Of a stretch of DNA of 36,552 nt, positions 6,228 through 32,018 are shown one piece after another. The position numbers were made by a program, and so were the translations under genes. The DNA is from an uncultured Verrucomicrobiota bacterium (GTDB lineage: Bacteria > Verrucomicrobiota > Verrucomicrobiia > Opitutales > Opitutaceae): NCBI GenBank assembly GCA_903904685.1, contig CAIVDS010000105.1, positions 1-36,552 on the forward strand, given 5' to 3'. Below the pieces are notes generated by a model. That model made no database searches and was not told where the DNA came from. It was given only the letters and a program-made list of their open reading frames with translations. The stretch's first letter is position 1. Each line of letters starts with the position of its first letter.

Positions 6228-7631
6228 TTAAGCAAGGCAGGCTTTGAAGCCTTCGTTGAGGGCGGTGCGGTCGAGATTTTTGCCGATGAAGACGAGGGTG
6301 TTGGTGCGCGGAGACGCGCCCCACGGTTTGTCGAACTTGGCGTCGAAGAGCATGTGCACACCTTGGAAGACGAGGCGGTTGGGCGAGCCTTTCACGGAGA
6401 GAACGCCTTTCATGCGGTAGATGTCGCCACCCTTGGTTTTGAGGAGCTGGCCGATCCAGTCGTTGAGGCGCTTGCCATCGAGGTCGCCGTGGGTGCTGAT
6501 GCCGACGCTTGAGACGTCGTCGGCGTGCGAGTGGCTGTGGGGGTAGTCTTCCTGCCAGGTGGGGCGGACGTTATCCTCGGAGCCGTCGGGATAAATGTGG
6601 AGCGGTTCCTCGCCGCAGCCTTCAAAGACGAGGTAGAGGCCGGGTTCGTCGATCTTGAGCGGGTAGTGGCCGTGACCGTCGTCGAGGAGAAGACGATGGA
6701 GCGTGCCTCCGGGTATAAACGTATCGCCGGCCTTGAGGCGCGTTTCCCAGTCGGCGAAGACGTGCACGGCGGCTTCGCGGGCGGCGGCGATGTCTTTTTC
6801 GTCGAGGGATTTTACGCGCATGATGACGACGTCGAGTTCGTTCTCGTTGCTGTTGTGATGATGGTGTTCGTGATCATGACCTTCGTGTGCGTGGTCGTGG
6901 TCGCAGTGGCCGATGGCGAGGTCGAGGGTGCCGGCGGGGAGCTGGTAGGCGCCGGCCCATTCGAAGGGGTAGTCGGGCTTGAGGAACTCGGGGTCGAGGT
7001 CGGTGGCGCGGGAGAGGTTGAAGCCGCCGACGTTCAGGACGTGCTTGAGGTCGAGGGCGGCGTTTTGCGTGCGGTGGATCTTGGCGGCGCCGTTCATCTT
7101 GTGGATGCGGGCTTCCAGCGCGTTGAGTTCGGCGGAGGTGACGAGATCGGTCTTGTTGAGGATGATGACGTCGGCGAAACCAATTTGTTTTTTCACCTCG
7201 GGGGAGGTGTCGATGTGGAGGAGGACGTGCTTGGCGTCCACCAGGGTGACGATGCTGTCGAGGCGGAAGCGGGTGCGCATCTCGTCGTCGGTAAAAAACG
7301 TCTGCGCGACGGGGCCGGGGTCGGCGAGGCCGGTGGTCTCGATGAGGATGCCGTCAAGCTTGTCCTTGCGCTTCATGAGGCGGCCGAGGACGCGGATGAG
7401 GTCGCCGCGCACGGTGCAGCAGATGCAGCCGTTGTTCATCTCGAAGAGTTCCTCGTTGGAGGAGATGACGAGTTGGTTGTCCACGCCGACTTCGCCGAAC
7501 TCGTTTTCGATGACGGCGATCTTTTTGCCATGCTGTTCGGTGAGGATGCGGTTGAGCAGCGTGGTCTTGCCGGCGCCGAGGAAGCCGGTGAGGACGGTGA
7601 CGGGAATGGGGGCGGGCTTGGTTTCGGACAT
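6228..7631 (-). CDS. COG0523 / CobW-family GTPase, putative metallochaperone
   Basis: This 467-residue G3E-family P-loop GTPase has the Walker A motif [11 protein letters not shown] (residues 16-26), the family's metal-binding CICC motif (69-72, in [11 protein letters not shown]), and the guanine-specificity motif NKTD (159-162). A His/Asp/Glu-rich stretch of the [15 protein letters not shown] type (242-259) is typical of zinc-handling members, and the C-terminal CobW domain follows (about 275-467). These proteins load or deliver metal ions in the cytoplasm; zinc is the most likely metal, though cobalt and iron members exist. The start is the ATG before SETKPAP. A much longer in-frame extension would overlap the sufE gene and is rejected. 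The gene lies 29 bases downstream of that sufE, so the two are probably co-transcribed. Confidence 0.93.
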
Positions 7632-7660
7632 GGGAGAAGGATGAAGGAAGACGGGGTGAA

Positions 7661-8086
7661 TTAAGTAGGCGAGAGGCGTGCGGCCTCGGCGTGGGCGAGG
7701 ATGCGTTTGACGAAGTGGGCGAGGCCGTTGGATCGATTGTTCGAAAGAACCTGGGGGAGTCCGGCATCGCGGATGAAGCCGTCCCCGACGGCGAGAATTT
7801 CTTCGGGAGTGCCGCCGCTGTAAACCTCTGCGAGGGCGGCGGCCACGCCCTTGGGAATGGCGGCGGCGGCATCGGTGCGGAACCAGAGCCGGCCGTCGCG
7901 TTGTTCGGGTGCGAGCCAGAGTTCGGAAATGCACCCCTCGATGCGAAAGGCGTCGGTGCGATAGGCGGGCGCGATAGCCGGGGCGCGGCGACCCTTGGCG
8001 AGCAGCCAGGTGAGGCGTTCGGTAGGATCGTCGATGAGGGTCATCGTTTCGACGAGGGCGCGGCTGCGTGCGAGGACATCGGACAT
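7661..8086 (-). CDS. sufE: SufE-family cysteine desulfuration protein (copy 1)
   Basis: SufE accepts persulfide sulfur from a cysteine desulfurase (SufS) and stimulates it during Fe-S cluster assembly in the cytoplasm. The 141-residue product shows the family signature: [15 protein letters not shown] near the N-terminus, the persulfide-accepting cysteine in [11 protein letters not shown], and a C-terminal helix with [18 protein letters not shown]. The ATG at 8086 (MSDVLARS) was chosen because a terminator hairpin for the upstream pyk sits at 8140-8172, inside any longer version. A start at 8107 would also be possible. The gene is followed by the CobW GTPase at 29 bases. A second, divergent SufE is encoded at 34599-35000. 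No SufS gene is in the window. Confidence 0.88.
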
Positions 8087-8139
8087 AGAGCGGTCAACGT
8101 AGCGCATGAAACGGACCGCGCAAGCCGCCGGAGAAACAT

Positions 8140-8172
8140 AAAAAGGCGCGCTCCCCGCGGCGGGAATGCGCC
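8140..8172 (-). terminator. Terminator of pyk
   Basis: Read on the minus strand, a GC-rich hairpin (ggcgc at 8145-8149 with gcgcc at 8168-8172, continuing with 8152-8155 against 8162-8165) is followed by five U residues (8140-8144). It lies about 20 bases past the pyk stop codon and upstream of the sufE start. Confidence 0.7.
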
Positions 8173-8192
8173 AGAATGAAAAGCAAGGCGGG

Positions 8193-9626
8193 TCAGCGCA
8201 CGGTGCGGAGCTGGACGCTGTCAACCAAACGGTCGCGAGTGAGCAGATCTGTGGCGATGATGAGTTTGTCGCCCGTTTGAACGCGGCCCGCTTTAACGAG
8301 GAGGGCGATGGCGTTTTCGATGGTGTCGTTGGGCTCCGAATCCAGCGGAAGTATGTAGGGCTCGACGCCGCGCAGCAGGCGGAGTTGGCGGAGCGTTTCC
8401 ACCGAGTTGGTCATTGCGAAGATCGGCGCGCAGGCGGGACGGAGGGCGGCGAGGCCGGCGGCCATGAAGCCTTGGCGGGTAAACGTGATCAACGCGGAGT
8501 CGGACACCTGATGCGCAAGGAGCACGCCGGACTGGAGCAGCTTGAGCTTGTCGCCGGTGACATGCTCGGGTTCGGCGAAGTCAAACGGACCCTCTTCCTC
8601 GATGCGACGGGCGATCTTGTCGAGAATGCTGACGCATTCGAGCGGATATTTGCCGATGGTGGTTTCGCCGGAGAGCATGACGCAGTCGGCCTTTTCGTAG
8701 ACGGCGTTGGCGACGTCGGTGATCTCGGCCCGGGTGGGCATGGGCATCGTGATCATCGATTCGAGCATGTGTGTGGCGATGATCACCGGCTTGCCGTGGT
8801 CGAAGCAGGATTTGACCGCGCGGCGCTGGATGACGGGCAAGTCTTCAAAAGGGCATTCGATGCCGAGGTCGCCGCGGGCAACCATGAGCGAGTCGGTGGC
8901 CTGGATGATTTCCTCGAGGTTGGAGATGGCGGTCTGGTCCTCGATCTTGGCGATGATCTTGGCCTTCGAGTGATGGGCTTGAAGGTATTCGCGGAGGAGC
9001 TCGATGTCCTTTGCCTCGCGCACAAATGACAGGGCGACGAAGTCGATGCCTTCCTCGATGCCGACCTGGGTATCGCCGCGGTCCTTCTCGGTGAAGGAGG
9101 GCAGGTTGACCTTGACGCCGGGGAGGTTGATATGCCGGCGCGACTTCAACTCGCCGGGGATGAGCACGCGGCAGCGGAGGTGGGCGTTGTCTTTTTCGAG
9201 GACTTCGAGGCGGATGAGGCCGTTGTCAACGAGGACGGTGTCGCCGATCGTGATGTCGTTGACGAGATCCTGATAGTTGACGTTGACCGAGCGGACCTCC
9301 TCGCCGTTGTCGCGGTCGGCGCCGGGCTTGACGGTGAAGTCGAAAATCTCGCCGGCCTTGAGTTCCATCGGAGCATCGACGTCGCCGGTGCGGATCTCGG
9401 GTCCCTTGATGTCCATCATGATCCCGATCTCGCGGCCGACCTTCTTGGAGACGGCGCGGATGCGGCGGATGACTTCGCGGGTCCAGTCGTGCTTGGCGTG
9501 CGCCATGTTGAGGCGGGCGATATCGACCCCGGCGAGGATCAGCTTTTCCAGCATTTCTTCGCTTTCGGTGGCGGGGCCGAGCGTGAAAATGATTTTGGTG
9601 CGACGGAAGTGGGTCATCTGGTTCAT
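8193..9626 (-). CDS. pyk: Pyruvate kinase
   Basis: The enzyme converts phosphoenolpyruvate and ADP to pyruvate and ATP, the last step of glycolysis, in the cytoplasm. The 477-residue length is standard. Diagnostic segments are TKIIFTLGPATESEEML at the N-terminus, MMDIKGPEIRTG, the active-site signature IIAKIEDQTAISN with the catalytic lysine, VARGDLGIE, THMLESM and SGETTIGKYPLE, followed by the C-terminal regulatory domain. The start is the ATG of MNQMTHFRR; an alternative ATG lies nine bases inside, at 9617. The gene is followed by its own hairpin terminator, so it is transcriptionally separate from sufE, and it lies 73 bases downstream of the metallo-hydrolase gene. Confidence 0.97.
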   Translation of the reverse strand: MNQMTHFRRTKIIFTLGPATESEEMLEKLILAGVDIARLNMAHAKHDWTREVIRRIRAVSKKVGREIGIMMDIKGPEIRTGDVDAPMELKAGEIFDFTVKPGADRDNGEEVRSVNVNYQDLVNDITIGDTVLVDNGLIRLEVLEKDNAHLRCRVLIPGELKSRRHINLPGVKVNLPSFTEKDRGDTQVGIEEGIDFVALSFVREAKDIELLREYLQAHHSKAKIIAKIEDQTAISNLEEIIQATDSLMVARGDLGIECPFEDLPVIQRRAVKSCFDHGKPVIIATHMLESMITMPMPTRAEITDVANAVYEKADCVMLSGETTIGKYPLECVSILDKIARRIEEEGPFDFAEPEHVTGDKLKLLQSGVLLAHQVSDSALITFTRQGFMAAGLAALRPACAPIFAMTNSVETLRQLRLLRGVEPYILPLDSEPNDTIENAIALLVKAGRVQTGDKLIIATDLLTRDRLVDSVQLRTVR

Positions 9627-10567: not shown

Positions 10568-10581
10568 GTTTGCCGGCAAAC
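10568..10581. promoter_or_regulatory. 14-bp perfect palindrome in the divergent promoter region
   Basis: GTTTGCCGGCAAAC is a perfect palindrome, loosely extended by a GCGG/CCGC pair with a one-base bulge. It lies 30 bases upstream of the pterin synthase ATG and about 50 bases from the divergent MBL gene start. It could be an operator or a leader hairpin; no known regulator motif is recognised. Confidence 0.3.
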
Positions 10582-10611
10582 TCCGCCGCCGCATTGACCA
10601 AGCAGGCTTTT

Positions 10612-11109
10612 ATGATACCTAATGAACCTTCAATGCCGAAGAAAGCTGCGAAGTCCAAAGTCGTTCCGCCTGCCGTGCGCCCCTTGAAGGGCACGGTCAT
10701 CATCACGCGGCAGGTGCACTTCAATTCCGCCCACCGGCTCTACAACCCGTCGAAAAGCCAGCAATGGAACGTCGCCCATTACGGTCTTTGCACCAACCCC
10801 CACTGGCATGGTCACAACTATGTGCTGGAGGTTTCCGTGCGCGGCGAGCCCGATCCCGAGACCGGCTACATCATTGACCTCGGCGAACTGAAGGGCCTTC
10901 TCCACGCGGCGATCGTCGACAAGTGCGACCATCGCAACCTGAACGACGAGGTCGATTTTCTCCGCGGCATCATCCCGTCCACCGAAAACCTTGTGATCGC
11001 TTTCTGGAACGAGATAGCGCCGCGCATCACCGCCGGAAAACTCCACTGCGTGAAACTTTACGAGACGCCGCGCAACTTCGCCGAATATCGCGGCCCCGAC
11101 GCTTCCTGA
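10612..11109 (+). CDS. 6-pyruvoyl-tetrahydropterin synthase family (PTPS-II type)
   Basis: The 165-residue protein belongs to COG0720. Visible features are the zinc ligands His41 (in FNSAH) and His66/His68 (HGH), the catalytic cysteine Cys60 in [12 protein letters not shown], the Asp/His pair in CDHRNLND (106-107), and the substrate-anchoring Glu151 in LYETPRN. The catalytic spacing is Cys-x5-HGH, as in the eukaryotic PTPS that makes 6-pyruvoyl-tetrahydropterin, not the Cys-x3-HGH of the queuosine enzyme QueD. It heads a three-gene cluster with folE2 and a sepiapterin-reductase-like gene, which supports a biopterin role. The ATG at 10612 has an AGCAGG element five bases upstream; ATG 10633 is an alternative. 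QueD activity remains possible. Confidence 0.88.
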
Positions 11110-11189
11110 AATCCCAATCTCTGCCAGTTTATCCCGCATCCGCGGGAACGGTTATCGGTCCCCGTCTGGCTCCAACCCAAAAACGAAAA

Positions 11190-12170
11190 ATGAAAGCCAA
11201 GAAAACCATGTATCTCCATCCGGCGGCGGGCGGGGAGGCTCCGCGCATCAAGCGGCGTTACGACTCGAAGTTCAAGGCTACGCCCGCCTATGTCGCCACG
11301 CTGCCCGACATGATGGAGGCCTGCAACGATACCTCCCAAGGAGTGCATGTGCCGATTCAGCAGGTCGGCATCTCCAACTTCAAACTGCCGCTCAACTACC
11401 GGACGAAGTCTGGAAAATCCCTCGTGCTCGAAACGAGCGTGACCGGCACCGTGTCGCTTCAGGCCGAGTTGAAGGGCATCAACATGAGCCGCATCATGCG
11501 CTCGTTCTACGATCACAAGGACGAGGCGACCACCGGCGAATGGATGGGCAAAATTCTCAAGGCCTACATGCGCCGGGTGGAAAGCAAGACCGCCCGGCTG
11601 AAGATCCGGTTTTCCTACCCGATGCTTCAACCGAGCCTGCGCAGCGGACTGGCGGGGTATCAGTTCTACGATGTGGCGTTCGAGGGCGTGATGACGGCCG
11701 ACGGCCGCTACCGCCGGTTCATCCAGTTTGATTTCGTCTACTCCTCGGCCTGCCCTTGCTCCGCCGAACTCTCCGAGCATGCGCGGGATAAGCGCGACGC
11801 CTACACCGTCCCCCATTCGCAACGAAGCAAAGCCCGGGTGACCATCGAGGAGGCCGACGGCAAAAAAATCTGGATTGAGGATGTCCACGCCCTTTGCCTC
11901 CGCGCGCTCAGGACCGAGACGCAGGTGATGGTGAAGCGCGAGGACGAGCAGGCATTCGCCGAGCTCAACGGCGCGCACCTCAAGTTCGTCGAGGACGCCG
12001 CGCGGCTGCTCTATGCCGAATTGGCAAAGGACAGGCGCGTCGCCGATTTCCAGATCGCGTGCTCGCATCAGGAGTCGCTGCACTCGCACGACGCCGTGAG
12101 TGTGATTTGCAAGGGCGTGAAAGGCGGCTTCTCCGCGGATTTCTCCGATTTTCGTTCGCTGGTGTGCTGA
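11190..12170 (+). CDS. folE2: GTP cyclohydrolase FolE2 (type IB)
   Basis: GTP cyclohydrolase converts GTP to 7,8-dihydroneopterin triphosphate, the first step of folate, biopterin and queuosine synthesis. The 326-residue product is the FolE2 type: [27 protein letters not shown] near the N-terminus corresponds to the family start, and the metal-binding cysteine lies in [14 protein letters not shown] (188-190), followed by [10 protein letters not shown]. FolE2 can use metals other than zinc and is often made when zinc is short. The ATG at 11190 (MKAKKTMYL) was chosen; it lies 80 bases after the PTPS gene and 8 bases before the SDR gene. Together the three provide GTP to tetrahydropterin. Confidence 0.93.
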
Positions 12171-12178
12171 ACTGAACA

Positions 12179-12889
12179 ATGAAAACTCCCGTCATCCTCA
12201 TCACCGGCGCCTCGCAGGGCATTGGCGCGGCCATCGCGAAGGTGTTCGCCCGCGAGCTGCCCGGCGTGCGGCTTGCGTTGGTCGCTCGCAACGCTCGCAA
12301 CCTCGCCGCCATGCAACGCGCCTGCGCGAAGCTCGGGGCGGTGGCCGAAGCATTCGTTTGCGACGTGACCGACGCGAAGGCGGTCGATGCGATGGCGAAG
12401 GCCGTAACCAAGCGTTTCAAGACGGTGGACGTGCTCGTCAACAACGCCGGCGTGTTTGTCGCCGCGCCGTTTCTGGAAACCAAGGTCGCCGACTTCGACC
12501 GCATCGTCGCGGCCAACCTGCGCAGCGCGTTCCTGGTGACGCGGGCCTTCGTGCCCGCGATGGTGAAGCGCAGGCAGGGCGACGTTTTTTTCATGAGCTC
12601 GATCGCCGGTCTCGATGCCTATCCCAACTCCACCGCCTACTGTGCGGCGAAGTTTGGCGTGACGGGTCTGGCCAAGGTGCTGCGCGCCGAGACACGCGGC
12701 CATGGGGTGCGCGTGTGTTGCGTTCACCCCGGCGCGACGTGGTCGCCGTCGTGGTCGGAGAGCGGGGTGAAGGCGGAGCGCATCATGCCGGCCGGGGATG
12801 TTGCCCGAGCGTTTCTCGATGTTTACCGGCTGGGCCGACGCACAGTGGTCGAAGAGATCGTGCTGCGTCCGCAGTTGGGAGACCTCTGA
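12179..12889 (+). CDS. Short-chain dehydrogenase, sepiapterin-reductase-like
   Basis: This is a classical SDR of 236 residues with the NADP(H)-binding motif TGASQGIG (9-16), the NNAG motif (88-91) and catalytic Ser-Tyr-Lys (Ser140 or 141, Tyr154, Lys158 in YCAAK). Its C-terminal end RTVVEEIVLRPQLGDL closely matches, from memory, the end of the Chlorobium tepidum sepiapterin reductase (RTVVEEI-LRP...GD), and the preceding PGA-W-P-W and MP-D segments also agree. That enzyme reduces 6-pyruvoyl-tetrahydropterin to a tetrahydrobiopterin. Position eight bases behind folE2 and downstream of a PTPS gene gives the full three-step set. A generic 3-oxoacyl-ACP reductase role is the less likely alternative. 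It meets the convergent MYG1-type gene with a four-base gap. Confidence 0.85.
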   Translation: MKTPVILITGASQGIGAAIAKVFARELPGVRLALVARNARNLAAMQRACAKLGAVAEAFVCDVTDAKAVDAMAKAVTKRFKTVDVLVNNAGVFVAAPFLETKVADFDRIVAANLRSAFLVTRAFVPAMVKRRQGDVFFMSSIAGLDAYPNSTAYCAAKFGVTGLAKVLRAETRGHGVRVCCVHPGATWSPSWSESGVKAERIMPAGDVARAFLDVYRLGRRTVVEEIVLRPQLGDL

Positions 12890-13918: not shown

Positions 13919-14794
13919 TCACTCAAGTCTCGCTCCCTTAACAAGATTGCAAGGTTCGCAGAGGGTTCTAAGATTTTCTTCTACTGTTTCGCCTCCGCGA
14001 GACCAAGGAATGGCATGATCTACATGTAATTTTATCGGAGGGGTGCTCGTCGCGGGGCTTTGACCGCAAAGAACACAACGAAAGCAATCGCGGCTGAAGA
14101 TTTTGTAGCGCAGACCTAGAGGAATATTTCGTGAAGTGCGTTTTGGCGAAGCGTGAACATACGTTTTGATTTCGGGCGTTTGCTCTGCTGGCTCCTCATG
14201 CGAGGTATCTTGATTCGTGCGCTCAACAAATGCTTGAAGTGCTTTTCGCCACGAACCCCAACGTCCGACATAAGCTTTGGGTCCGACTTTAGAAGGCGGT
14301 TTGCTTAAATCACTGTAAAAGGGTTGCCGACCGAGTGCAGTCCAAACGGTGAGCAGATTCTCAAAGCACTCTTCATCGGTGTAGCGAACACCTCCTAGTG
14401 ATTGATATAGTCCTGCTGCTTCGAGCGCGGCTCGATAAGAACCAAAAATGCGTCGGATGGGGCGCTGAGTAATTCCGATCTGAGTGCCCAGTTCGTTTAG
14501 GGTGACGTAAGCTTTCCCCGTTGACCGTGCAATGGCCTGAAGCTGTCCGATTATTTCATCGCGAGACCACATATCCGTGCGATCATCGAATCGGTCTTCC
14601 AGTCCAGCGGCGGCCAGCGCTTTACGCCAGTTTCCAAAACGGTTGTGAAGCGTGGAAGCGTGGACTTTACTCAGTCGGTTAAAGTCAGAACGAGAAAGTT
14701 TATCGGAAGAAACAAGTTCGGCTACACGCTTCAGTTCGTTGATCAAAGACTGATCATCGTAGTTGCTCAGTCTTTCGAGTTCAAATGCAGCCAT
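13919..14794 (-). CDS. HNH endonuclease with homing-endonuclease-associated repeats
   Basis: The C-terminal part of this 291-residue protein is an HNH nuclease with zinc knuckles: CVLCG, then the catalytic LHVDHAIPWSRGG, an Asn in EENLRTLC, and CEPCN. The N-terminal two thirds contains about three copies of a helical DNA-binding repeat recognised by its ending: FGNWRKALAAAGL, FGSYRAALEAAGL and WGSWRKALQAFV. This architecture is typical of free-standing homing-type or mobile HNH proteins. Base composition is clearly lower in G+C than the flanking ruvB and MYG1 genes (30 of 60 bases in one stretch counted), which suggests recent transfer. It starts 19 bases behind the ruvB stop codon. No intron, inverted repeat or integrase is seen. 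Target unknown. Confidence 0.87.
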   Translation of the reverse strand: MAAFELERLSNYDDQSLINELKRVAELVSSDKLSRSDFNRLSKVHASTLHNRFGNWRKALAAAGLEDRFDDRTDMWSRDEIIGQLQAIARSTGKAYVTLNELGTQIGITQRPIRRIFGSYRAALEAAGLYQSLGGVRYTDEECFENLLTVWTALGRQPFYSDLSKPPSKVGPKAYVGRWGSWRKALQAFVERTNQDTSHEEPAEQTPEIKTYVHASPKRTSRNIPLGLRYKIFSRDCFRCVLCGQSPATSTPPIKLHVDHAIPWSRGGETVEENLRTLCEPCNLVKGARLE

Positions 14795-28584: not shown

Positions 28585-30390
28585 ATGTTGATGCAGTTTA
28601 AACGTCGCAGACGACATGCGCGTCTTTGGTGGGGACTGCTGACCGTAGTGGCTGTCGGCCTGATTTCCTTTGCCGGTCCCGACGCCCTTAAAGACGGACG
28701 CAAGGCTTATGCGCAGTGGAAATGCGAACGGGCGTTGGCAAAGGCGCACGTCGCTTTCAAAGCCAAAGACATGGCCAGTGTTGCGCTGGCTTTGCAAGTG
28801 GCGATCCGCGCCGACCGGGGAAACCCGGAAGTCTGGAAAACCATCGCCGACATCACCGAGTCAATGGGGGCGCGTGAAGCGATTCAGCAGCGCCAACAGG
28901 TCGCCATGCTGATGCCCGGCAATGTCGAGGCCCAACTCGCTCTTGCGGTCACCGCTCTGCGCTTCGGAGATATTTATACCGCGAGAGATGCTCTCAAGGC
29001 GGTCCCGACCGATTTGCGCGATACGATGTCTTATCGCCGGGTCGTCGCGCTCTATGCCATGGTTGAGGGCAATGGCGGCACCGCCGAGGACGTGCTGGCT
29101 TCGGTGATGAAAAACGATTCGAGCGATGGTGTCCGGCTTGCCTATACTGCGGTGCGCATGTCGCATCCCAATCCTGCCATTGCCGCATCCGCCCGTCAGG
29201 AAATGGCCGGCATGGTCGAGAATCCCGCGCTGGCGGCGTCGGCCCTGCGCGAACTCGTGGGGGATGCGGTCTTGCGCAAAGACCATGAGGCGGCCCGGAC
29301 TTGGGCGGAGCGTCTGGTCAAATTACCCAACCCCCAGTATAGCGACCACCTCGCTCTGGCCACCTTGCGCTTGCTCGACGAGCATCGTCCGCTGGAGGAA
29401 TTAATGGGACCCCTGATGGAAAAGGCCAAAGTCAATCCGAGTAACCTGGCCGACTTGGTCCGCTGGCTCATGGTCCAGCGTCAAGTTGAACGTGCTCGCG
29501 CGGTGGTGGACGGCCTGCCGCCTGAGACGAGAGATACTTTTGTGATGAAAGCGGTCCGGTTGGATATGGCGGTTGCCCAAAAAGATTGGGCAGGCGTGGG
29601 CGAATTGCTTCGCCAAGGTGCCCTTGGCCCGGTGCCCGATATCGCCCTGCGTCTCGCGATGGAGTCCCATAGCATCGGAGAGATCGAGGGAGAAAAAGCC
29701 CGACTCGCCCACTGGCAGCAAGCGATTGAACAGAGTAAAACGAATATTTTCGGCTTAAGAATGCTCTACAAACTGGCGCTCACGTGGCAGTGGGCAGCTG
29801 AAATCGAGGCCACGCTTCAGTCGATCGCCGATAATTTTCCCGGGCAGACGTGGGCGCATGAATCGTTGGTGCGTGGATATACCTTGGCGCAAAACGGACC
29901 GGCTTTGCTCAAGATTTTTGCCCTCTGGCACCGGCAGCAAGGAGGGGTGAACCGTCTCACCAACGACTGGGCCTTGATGGACATGTTGGTGTCGCCGGTG
30001 GATACATGGAATTCGTCCAAGGTGGCTGCCGAGCAGCTCTATCTGAACGAATCCAGCAACCCCAACTACGCCATCACCTGCGCCCTTGGCTACACTCAGG
30101 CGGGACGTAATGCCGAAGCCTTGGGCGTTGTGGATAGACTCAAACCCGAGGATCGGCGTGATCCGGCTCGCGCACCTTATCTTGCGTTTATTTATGCCCA
30201 AGGAGGACGTGCCAAGGAAGCGCGCGAGCAACTGGCGCTGCCCCATCCCGACCATGCGTTGAAGGAGGAGGTCCAACTGGCGGCACTCGCCAAAAAACGG
30301 ATCGAGCAAATCGAACAGCAGGAAGCTGAAATTCGCCGGCTCACCGGCGTGTCCGAGGATCAATCACCCGCAGGAGCCGCCAAACGGTGA
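28585..30390 (+). CDS. Membrane-anchored tetratricopeptide-type repeat protein, exosortase-associated
   Basis: After a basic N-terminus (MLMQFKRRRRHAR) comes one membrane helix (LWWGLLTVVAVGLISF, about residues 14-29). The rest of the 601 residues is a helical array of TPR-like repeats, seen as recurring helix pairs rich in Ala/Leu (for example ALALQVAIRADRGNPEVWKTIADI, ARDALKAVPTDL and AYTQAGRNAEALGVVDRL). It should be a periplasmic scaffold. It is translated in overlap with the exosortase gene: the GTG start of that gene overlaps this stop by four bases (GTGA), so the two products are probably stoichiometric partners. TPR proteins accompany many exosortase systems. ATG 28591 is an alternative start. 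The exact role is unknown. Confidence 0.83.
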   Translation: MLMQFKRRRRHARLWWGLLTVVAVGLISFAGPDALKDGRKAYAQWKCERALAKAHVAFKAKDMASVALALQVAIRADRGNPEVWKTIADITESMGAREAIQQRQQVAMLMPGNVEAQLALAVTALRFGDIYTARDALKAVPTDLRDTMSYRRVVALYAMVEGNGGTAEDVLASVMKNDSSDGVRLAYTAVRMSHPNPAIAASARQEMAGMVENPALAASALRELVGDAVLRKDHEAARTWAERLVKLPNPQYSDHLALATLRLLDEHRPLEELMGPLMEKAKVNPSNLADLVRWLMVQRQVERARAVVDGLPPETRDTFVMKAVRLDMAVAQKDWAGVGELLRQGALGPVPDIALRLAMESHSIGEIEGEKARLAHWQQAIEQSKTNIFGLRMLYKLALTWQWAAEIEATLQSIADNFPGQTWAHESLVRGYTLAQNGPALLKIFALWHRQQGGVNRLTNDWALMDMLVSPVDTWNSSKVAAEQLYLNESSNPNYAITCALGYTQAGRNAEALGVVDRLKPEDRRDPARAPYLAFIYAQGGRAKEAREQLALPHPDHALKEEVQLAALAKKRIEQIEQQEAEIRRLTGVSEDQSPAGAAKR

Positions 30391-32018
30391 ACGTGGGAGG
30401 GCAATCGCAGGAGCGTGCTCCCGGCGTGCCGACCGGGGTATTTGTTGCCGCGGTGTTGCTGGCCTTGGTGGTGCTTGGTTTGCCGTTTGCGTCGGCTTGG
30501 AGCGCATCTCCCGACCTAGGACACGGCTGGGCTTTGCCTTGGTTGATCGGCTGGTTGTTGTGGGAGCGTCGGTCGTCGGTCGTCTCTGCGCCGCCATGGG
30601 AACTTTCGTGGTATGCATGGCTTGGACTGGTTGGTCTGGCTGCTGGCGTGTTGGTCACGCGATTGCTTCTGGGGGCTTATCCGCTGCTGCCTACGGTGCT
30701 CTGGGCCTTGGGTTTTATTTTCGTGATTTTCGCGTTGAGCGCGGCTGCGTTGCTCGGCGGTAGGAAAGCGGTGCGTGTCCTGGCCGTGCCGTTGCTCCTG
30801 ATGCTTGCCGGGTTGCCTTGGCCGAGCGTGGTGGAAAACGCGGTGGTGCTGCCTTTGCGAGCAGGGCTGACGACAATTACAGTGGAGGTGTTGAATGCCG
30901 CCGGCGTGCCGTCGCTGGCGAACGGAACTGTCATCCAGATCCCCGGTGGAACAGTGGGTGTTGATGAGGCGTGCGGCGGGATGCGTTCGTTGCAGGCGTC
31001 GCTCATGATCGCACTTTTTGTCGGCGAGGTTGCGTTGCTGGGCTGGGGGCGTCGCATCGCGCTGCTGGGGCTTTCGGTGGCGACCGCTATGGCGGGCAAC
31101 TTGTTCCGGGTGGGCTTGCTGACTTGTGCGGCCAATTCGGGCGGCGAAGCCCGCCTGCATGCATGGCATGATCCGGCGGGTTATCTGGCATTGATCTGCA
31201 CACTGCTTGTCATCGGCGTGTTGGGTTGGCGATGGGGTGGCGGTGGGGCCATGCTTGCGCCTTCCCCGGATGGGAATTGGTCAACGGGCCTGCGCGTGAG
31301 CAAACGCAAGCTGGTGTGGGCGGTGACGGTGCTGGCGATTGTGGTGTCGATCGAAATTTTTGTTCAGGGTTGGTATGGCGCGAGGAGTCACGCACTGGCT
31401 TCGCAACCCGAATGGCGGGTGGCTTGGCCGATGAAGGCGGATGGTTTCCATGAGGACAAACTAGGTCCCACCGGGGTGGAGGCTTTGAACGCCGATGTCT
31501 ACGCAGCCGCATCTTGGCGTCCGCCAGCCGGTGGCGAGCGATCCGCCTATACCGTTGAATGGCGAACCGGTCAGAAGGCCCGGATTTTTTCCCTCCAGCA
31601 TCGTCCGGATATATGTTTGCCGATGATGGGCAGCCAGCTCATCGGGCGGTTTGATGTGCCGCCGGTCCGTGTCGGTGTTTTGACACTTCCTTTCTCTGGT
31701 CTTGAGTTCCGGCGCAACGAGAAGCTCGTCTATATTTTCACCTTGTTGTGGGATATGGACGAAGCGCGCGCCTTTGTGCATGTACCGGTGACTCAAGGAT
31801 GGTTGATGGAGTTTCGCTCGCGCTGGCTGGATGTGTGCGAACGCCGCGCCCGGGTGCGCGTGCAGCTTTGCACCTATCAAGTGACGGGTGCGTCCAGCCG
31901 TGAAGAAGCGGTTGAGATATTTCGACGGGAGATCGAGGGCGGCTTCATGGTCGCAGCTTCGGATTCGGTCATGCGTTCCAAAGTGCCGATCTTCGGGCAG
32001 ATTCATACTGGCCGGTGA
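30387..32018 (+). CDS. Exosortase fused to EpsI-type domain
   Basis: The first 285 residues are a multi-helix membrane protein with the exosortase catalytic triad: Cys196 in VDEACGGMRS, Arg241 in NLFRVGLL, and His261 in HAWHDPAGY. The early HGW-LPWLIGWLLWERR segment is also typical. Exosortases are Cys transpeptidase-like proteases that process PEP-CTERM proteins at the periplasmic side of the inner membrane. After a further membrane helix (about 310-330) follows an EpsI-like periplasmic domain with the marker HRPDICLPMMG, common as a fusion or partner in exopolysaccharide-linked systems. The start is GTG 30387, overlapping the TPR stop. The system subtype cannot be assigned by eye. The one visible substrate is encoded just upstream. 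Confidence 0.93.
   Translation: MNVGGQSQERAPGVPTGVFVAAVLLALVVLGLPFASAWSASPDLGHGWALPWLIGWLLWERRSSVVSAPPWELSWYAWLGLVGLAAGVLVTRLLLGAYPLLPTVLWALGFIFVIFALSAAALLGGRKAVRVLAVPLLLMLAGLPWPSVVENAVVLPLRAGLTTITVEVLNAAGVPSLANGTVIQIPGGTVGVDEACGGMRSLQASLMIALFVGEVALLGWGRRIALLGLSVATAMAGNLFRVGLLTCAANSGGEARLHAWHDPAGYLALICTLLVIGVLGWRWGGGGAMLAPSPDGNWSTGLRVSKRKLVWAVTVLAIVVSIEIFVQGWYGARSHALASQPEWRVAWPMKADGFHEDKLGPTGVEALNADVYAAASWRPPAGGERSAYTVEWRTGQKARIFSLQHRPDICLPMMGSQLIGRFDVPPVRVGVLTLPFSGLEFRRNEKLVYIFTLLWDMDEARAFVHVPVTQGWLMEFRSRWLDVCERRARVRVQLCTYQVTGASSREEAVEIFRREIEGGFMVAASDSVMRSKVPIFGQIHTGR

Follow-up and report, generated by a model that had tools for sequence, protein, structure and literature searches.

Tetrahydrobiopterin (BH4) is a cofactor best known from animals, and its synthesis in bacteria is already known as well. 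The sepiapterin reductase (SR) of Chlorobium tepidum reportedly yields L-threo-tetrahydrobiopterin, and this bacterium is said to carry its pterin as a conjugate with N-acetylglucosamine (GlcNAc). According to passages of PMC5041015, BH4 synthesis in bacteria had been predicted for about 50 COG0720 proteins as of 2016, a PTPS-II of Synechococcus sp. PCC 7942 is named, and the 6-pyruvoyl-tetrahydropterin synthases (PTPS) are distinguished by their motifs (CxxxxxHGH for PTPS-II, CxxxHGH for QueD or PTPS-I and ExxHGH for PTPS-III). Here we analyse a window of 36,552 nucleotides, that is, the whole stretch from position 1 to 36,552 of the forward strand of contig CAIVDS010000105.1 (GenBank assembly GCA_903904685.1), from an uncultured Verrucomicrobiota bacterium of the family Opitutaceae. 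It contains a row of genes for a PTPS, for FolE2 (GTP cyclohydrolase IB) and for a short-chain dehydrogenase (SDR) resembling SR, which very probably form an operon for a tetrahydrobiopterin-type cofactor that would be fed by FolE2. Among the papers listed on FolE2 or GTP cyclohydrolase IB together with biopterin, on pterins of Opitutaceae or Opitutus, and on tetrahydrobiopterin in Verrucomicrobia, no report of such an operon was seen. The FolE2-PTPS neighbourhood may already be in print, because FolE2 is listed among the abbreviations in the legend to Figure 3 of PMC5041015.

The three genes lie on the plus strand in the order PTPS, FolE2 and SDR with gaps of 80 and 8 bases, as a preceding reading of the letters alone (hereafter the sequence-only reading) had described, and open reading frames (ORFs), Pfam and NCBIfam all agree with this arrangement. 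The first product (PF01242, 1.2e-33) is assigned by motif and phylogeny to PTPS-II, the biopterin type. Its motif, CTNPHWHGH, has the eukaryote-like Cx5HGH spacing that had been noticed earlier, and the same spacing is possessed by all 80 relative loci (the best 80 of 576; some bins contribute two loci). The nearest solved structures are the human (1b66, 5.6e-31) and rat (3i2b, 6.2e-31) enzymes, followed by that of C. elegans (2e-24); the best non-animal chain is from P. aeruginosa (2oba, 1e-11), and the 6-carboxytetrahydropterin synthases begin at 1.4e-9 (4ntm). With a profile of ten relatives the human enzyme reaches 1e-39 vs 3.5e-13 for 2oba. In a 38-row tree, ten operon PTPS selected from the fetched sequences, three animal PTPS and the third domain of each of two further Verrucomicrobiota proteins constitute one group (99/97), and all 23 Cx3HGH (QueD-type) rows are placed opposite to it in 98% of 200 bootstrap trees; two long-branch domains of genome G047 were present in the first PTPS tree and omitted from this one. 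The window PTPS hence groups with the human, rat and C. elegans enzymes and not with QueD, an outcome on which the sequence-only reading had staked its assignment. A QueD identity was considered and ruled out by motif and tree; the NCBIfam QueD model gives 64.5 bits, under its cut-off of 89.25, and CxxxHGH is missing. Like the animal PTPS-II of COG0720, the window protein keeps the Cx5HGH motif, the histidines, the Asp-His pair and the C-terminal Glu, but it shares only 38% of 132 aligned residues with human PTPS, its N-terminus is about 15 residues longer (counted from position 10633) and its gene adjoins FolE2. Collections of plasmids and phages hold 125 and 3 records matching the PTPS, all of them distant (<60% identity). 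Among the 40 plasmid matches listed, the annotated ones are QueD or 6-carboxytetrahydropterin synthase with one exception, a '6-pyruvoyl tetrahydropterin synthase family protein' beside queC and queE.

FolE2 matches both the Pfam GCHY-1 model (PF02649, 1e-71) and the NCBIfam FolE2 model (281 bits, cut-off 215) over its full length and above the curated cut-offs. Its structural counterpart is 3d2o/5k95 (NGO0387, 2.7e-23), to which it is similar over the whole domain including the CPCS stretch, but its N-terminus is about 38 residues longer than that of 3d2o. It differs from known FolE2 in its position within a biopterin-type operon; FolE is the enzyme named as the first step in a passage of PMC5041015. 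No FolE2 besides the operon copy was found in the window's genome, and a search of the same genome for FolE1 gave no match; as the sole GTP cyclohydrolase I found there, FolE2 must also serve folate. FolE1 was found in three of 37 genomes searched, two of which (G015 and G019) also carry PTPS-II, and FolE2 occurs in 54 of the 55 genomes of the comparison set described below, whether PTPS-II is present or not. The zinc-sparing version suggested by the sequence-only reading is better described as a biopterin-type pathway drawing on the resident FolE2, since no other GTP cyclohydrolase I turned up in the genome, and no special zinc argument is needed. The window FolE2 scores lower than the FolE2 of G287 and than a second FolE2 of G304, which is of a different, higher-scoring type and is found besides the operon copy (G304:C1:3755503-3756273).

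The SDR (adh_short, 9.2e-54) has 2bd0, the SR of C. tepidum, as its best solved match by single sequence (1e-40, next 1.4e-34), by a 12-row profile (7.6e-56, next 8.6e-45) and by Foldseek with an AlphaFold model (9.8e-24, next 4.1e-21; template-modelling (TM) score 0.92; predicted local distance difference test 91.9), the fold being common to all SDRs and hence supporting the ranking only. In the reverse search with C. tepidum SR against the window's genome, the window SDR came first (6.7e-41), followed by six others (next 3.9e-20). A FabG identity was also considered and rejected, since C. tepidum SR outranks every FabG chain in the PDB by sequence, profile and fold and is a reciprocal best match. 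The SDR tree, in which C. tepidum SR and the window orthologs form one group (95/98), agrees weakly, with long branches, unsettled bootstrap values and no named FabG row; it took three of the six other SDR loci of the window's own genome, with C34, C53 and C58 (second hit) left out. The two proteins share 37% identity, the Ser-Tyr-Lys triad, Trp196 and an EEI-LRP--GD tail, in which RTVVEEIVLRPQLGDL aligns with RTVVEEIILRPTSGDI of C. tepidum SR much as the sequence-only reading had noted, but the window SDR lacks Phe99 and has five residues fewer around the first helix. Trp196 and Phe99 are substrate-site residues of C. tepidum SR according to a passage of PMC7520308. All 21 SDR relatives aligned have Ser141, Tyr154 and Lys158, and an equivalent of Trp196 is found in 56 of 57 full-length SDRs (seven partial or reversed matches were dropped from the latter count). 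Without a conserved Phe99, the product's stereochemistry is not transferable from C. tepidum, and we file the window SDR as SR-like and not as the same L-threo-making subtype.

The gene order is far from chance, as it recurs in dozens of related loci. FolE2 stands next to PTPS in 79 of the 80 relative loci, while the contig of the 80th stops 31 bases after PTPS, and an SDR follows within 1.5 kb of FolE2 in 62; six of the other 18 contigs stop within 350 bases. A conserved order among relatives was one of the checks proposed by the sequence-only reading. Among 18 relatives fetched with their flanks, all have the PTPS-FolE2 pair and 14 an adjoining SDR. The remaining four are G013 and G019, which have none, and G007 and G009, which have SR on another contig; in G007 the run is split by a contig end and SR lies beside the rest of FolE2. 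Inspection by eye of eleven loci without an adjacent SDR indicated no replacement gene common to them. A scan of 387 genomes from the phylum, sampled evenly out of a larger group, detected PTPS-II (E <= 1e-20) in 33, namely 30 of the 37 same-family genomes listed and three others (two of them weak). In a set of 55 genomes, 44 that carry PTPS-II and 11 same-family genomes that do not, an SR ortholog (E <= 1e-40) is present in 40 of the 44 vs none of the 11 (Fisher 1.1e-8, not corrected for kinship). The three genes as a set are a trait of the family Opitutaceae. One contig labelled Proteobacteria (L084, 89-3512) has a PTPS-FolE2 pair 72-82% identical to that of the window, with genes for an acyl carrier protein and a ketoacyl synthase coming next; it has probably been mislabelled.

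Genes for a GTP cyclohydrolase I, a PTPS-II and an SR-like enzyme, as a BH4 pathway requires, occur together in the window's genome. The reactions, the product and its use are predicted from the families to which the proteins belong. FolE2 would convert GTP to 7,8-dihydroneopterin triphosphate, and would also feed folate and queuosine. PTPS-II would then remove the triphosphate and rearrange the side chain to give 6-pyruvoyl-tetrahydropterin, whose two side-chain carbonyls the SR-like SDR would reduce with NADPH to a tetrahydrobiopterin. The route from GTP to a tetrahydropterin proposed by the sequence-only reading seems well supported by family membership, gene order and co-occurrence, which, like the absence of matches to known users of the pterin, are seen directly in the sequences.

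PTPS-II is linked to a BH4 user through gene neighbourhood in genomes outside the family and, inside it, through co-occurrence. Matches to the aromatic amino acid hydroxylases (PF00351), nitric oxide (NO) synthase (PF02898) and FA_hydroxylase (PF04116), which we take to be the family that holds alkylglycerol monooxygenase, were all lacking in the window's genome (99.98% complete), as the sequence-only reading had left it to a genome search to decide for the hydroxylase. The enzymes listed as BH4-dependent in a passage of PMC4423366 are the aromatic amino acid hydroxylases, the NO synthases and alkylglycerol monooxygenase. The hydroxylase was found in none of 37 genomes and in ten of 31 further genomes, all ten with PTPS-II and SR; within the family it is present in nine of 43 PTPS-II genomes. 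Neither of the other two families tracks PTPS-II: NO synthase occurs in 8/44 PTPS-II genomes vs 1/11 without (p 0.67), and FA_hydroxylase exceeds its cut-off in 14/44 vs 3/11 (p 1.0). Two of the genomes with NO synthase, G117 and G290, have PTPS-II and FolE2 and no SR, and an NO synthase reading frame with one internal TAG stop is seen at G387:C66:481-1482.

All three PTPS-II matches outside the family (G287, strong; G047 and G196, weak) have a gene for an aromatic amino acid hydroxylase no more than 2 kb away. In G287 the hydroxylase adjoins SR, with PTPS beyond it on one contig, and the SDR is 61% identical to that of the window. In G047 a distance of 1.7 kb separates the hydroxylase from a triple PTPS, and their cluster also comprises an SDR, FolE1, homogentisate dioxygenase and hydroxyphenylpyruvate dioxygenase; the arrangement in G196, hydroxylase included, is the same as read from translation only; in both genomes the PTPS-II match is the third domain of the triple PTPS. 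These clusters, from another Verrucomicrobiota family, resemble the window operon in bringing together a GTP cyclohydrolase, a PTPS-II domain and an SDR, but they have FolE1 instead of FolE2, a triple-domain PTPS and an SDR that is not close to the window's, and the hydroxylase and the two dioxygenases stand beside them. The dioxygenase/FolE1/PTPS/SDR run spans 104-7811 in L245 (G047) and 37-7303 in L246 (G196), with the hydroxylase on the opposite strand and Cx5HGH in the third PTPS domain only. In G093, too, a hydroxylase gene lies near hydroxyphenylpyruvate dioxygenase.

No over-cut-off match to any of the three user families was found in 21 of the 44 PTPS-II genomes, all 21 with SR; they include nine of the 13 members of the window's genus. 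The count includes G001, G003 and G018 despite under-cut-off FA_hydroxylase matches; G001, G004 and G005 are only 77-88% complete, and six others are single-contig (G015, G016, G122, G170, G301 and G304). In some members of the family the pterin would serve an enzyme of the phenylalanine hydroxylase type. In the window's genome another use is probable, because none of the known BH4-dependent families is found there; the pterin may act free or glycosylated as a redox or light-protective compound, as a signal, or as the cofactor of an unknown enzyme. We lean slightly towards the view that the tetrahydrobiopterin made by this bacterium and by many members of its family has a role beyond the three known BH4-dependent families, either with an unrecognised enzyme or as a pterin for redox, light-protective or signalling purposes.

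Several observations weigh against the interpretation as a BH4-type operon. The PTPS falls under the curated NCBIfam cut-offs of the 6PTHBS and QueD models alike, and none of 25 shown NCBIfam SDR models reaches its cut-off on the window SDR. The position of Phe99, read at a fixed distance from NNAG, is occupied by Ala in the window SDR and by Phe in none of the 57 full-length sequences, and the SDRs of the G047 and G196 clusters branch outside the group of the window SDR in the SDR tree. Twelve of the 80 relative loci extend at least 1.3 kb past FolE2 but the SDR is not next (in L097 and L098 an SDR match is present elsewhere in the locus), and four of the 44 PTPS-II genomes have no SR ortholog (G013, G019, G117 and G290; loci L053, L050, L240 and L241, each with PTPS-II and FolE2). 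Three genomes that are 97-99% complete (G010, G013 and G019) possess queC and no second PTPS. Moreover, all 13 genomes of the window's genus lack the hydroxylase, and taken alone its link with PTPS-II across the 55 genomes falls short of significance (10/44 vs 0/11, p 0.18).

A different reduced pterin, such as the L-threo stereoisomer, a one-step-reduced form or a pterin glycosylated by a gene elsewhere, is a tentative and rather unlikely product, and this reading partly overlaps with the one we prefer. It would fit the combination of a kept Trp196 and a missing Phe99, and also the C. tepidum reports of an L-threo product and a GlcNAc conjugate. Pterin glycosides occur in Chlorobium and cyanobacteria, and their function is described as unknown in a passage of PMC3546692. 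However, nothing in the sequences fixes the stereochemistry, no glycosyltransferase model matched any of the 25 window ORFs scanned outside the operon, a search that did not extend to the whole genome, and the close SDR of G287, adjoining an aromatic amino acid hydroxylase, fits an ordinary cofactor.

It seems very improbable that PTPS and FolE2 act in queuosine synthesis or in a folate bypass, with the SDR as an ordinary ketoreductase that follows by chance. FolE2, as the only GTP cyclohydrolase I found, must feed both folate and queuosine, three genomes have queC and the operon PTPS alone, and 4/44 genomes retain the PTPS-FolE2 pair without SR, all as this reading would have it. However, the operon PTPS has Cx5HGH and neither Cx3HGH nor ExxHGH, it does not cluster with the Cx3HGH rows, and the SR ortholog is confined to PTPS-II genomes of the 55. 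In addition, the window's genome has a second PTPS with CKFPHGH (Cx3HGH, QueD-type) at G000:C33 and queC on another contig (G000:C26), so that the operon PTPS is not needed as QueD there; a queC elsewhere with no other queD, which the sequence-only reading had feared, is not the case. In G010, G013 and G019 the PTPS-II may double as QueD and serve queuosine, or QueD may sit on a missing contig; their PTPS loci are L017, L010 and L006, and their queC stretches L242, L243 and L244. It is also very unlikely that the operon is a remnant of ancestral BH4 synthesis for a phenylalanine hydroxylase since lost, its genes not yet decayed. Such a loss could be suggested by the distribution of the hydroxylase, which nine of 43 PTPS-II genomes in the family have and the window's genus lacks, but the PTPS, FolE2 and SR frames are stop-free in 13/13 genomes of the genus (in G007 split over two contigs), the catalytic motifs are kept, and the need for FolE2 alone would not retain PTPS and SR.

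The preferred reading, a FolE2-fed operon for a tetrahydrobiopterin-type cofactor, concerns the features collected in the table.

Table 1. Operon features in the window and the evidence for each
Feature	Position	Strand	Evidence
TTGACC-N11-TATGATA stretch	10594..10617	+	directly 5' of the conserved PTPS start; sole window match at <=1 mismatch
PTPS-II-type 6-pyruvoyl-tetrahydropterin synthase (putative)	10633..11109 (earlier start 10612)	+	PF01242, Cx5HGH, tree, MPKK start
FolE2, GTP cyclohydrolase IB	11190..12170	+	PF02649, NCBIfam FolE2, 3d2o/5k95 match, CPCS
Sepiapterin-reductase-like short-chain dehydrogenase	12179..12889	+	top match 2bd0 by sequence, profile and fold; reciprocal best

One detail of the layout given by the sequence-only reading was amended: order, strand and gaps stand as described, while the PTPS start at 10612 is doubtful. 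The start common to relatives is the ATG at 10633 (MPKK...; alignment of ten rows), and the ATG at 10612 falls within the TTGACC-N11-TATGATA stretch. This stretch is possibly part of a promoter; 0.06 matches are expected in the window, and six of 100 shuffles contained one. A similar stretch precedes PTPS in most of 13 relatives as judged by eye, and it is at best a feature of near relatives because the exact form TTGACC-N11-TATGNTA is present in just three of 78 relative loci with enough upstream sequence. The 14-base palindrome GTTTGCCGGCAAAC (10568-10581) was considered as a regulator site and rejected: no 14-base palindrome was seen upstream in the 13 relatives compared, and three further ones are present in the window.

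Upstream of the operon, on the opposite strand, are genes for a metallo-beta-lactamase-fold protein and pyruvate kinase, and then for SufE and a CobW-type GTPase; downstream are those for a MYG1-like protein, an HNH protein, RuvB and an EPSP-synthase-family protein. The CobW-family GTPase (6228-7934, minus strand) and SufE (7661-8224, minus strand) are observed with the GTPase about 3 kb upstream of FolE2, and a zinc-related link with FolE2 is possible. The HNH endonuclease (13919-14794, minus strand) has homing-endonuclease-associated repeats, and an EpsH-type exosortase is encoded at 30387-32018 on the plus strand. A Pfam scan of 25 window ORFs outside the operon, chosen from 97 ORFs of at least 120 residues, gave no aromatic amino acid hydroxylase or glycosyltransferase model (8/25 without any match), in line with the earlier remark that the window holds neither.

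If the preferred reading is true, a BH4 pathway runs on FolE2, and GTP cyclohydrolase IB would feed BH4 and not just folate and queuosine. A compact operon that is conserved family-wide, in some members with and in many without a known BH4 user, would offer a natural comparison for other roles of BH4.

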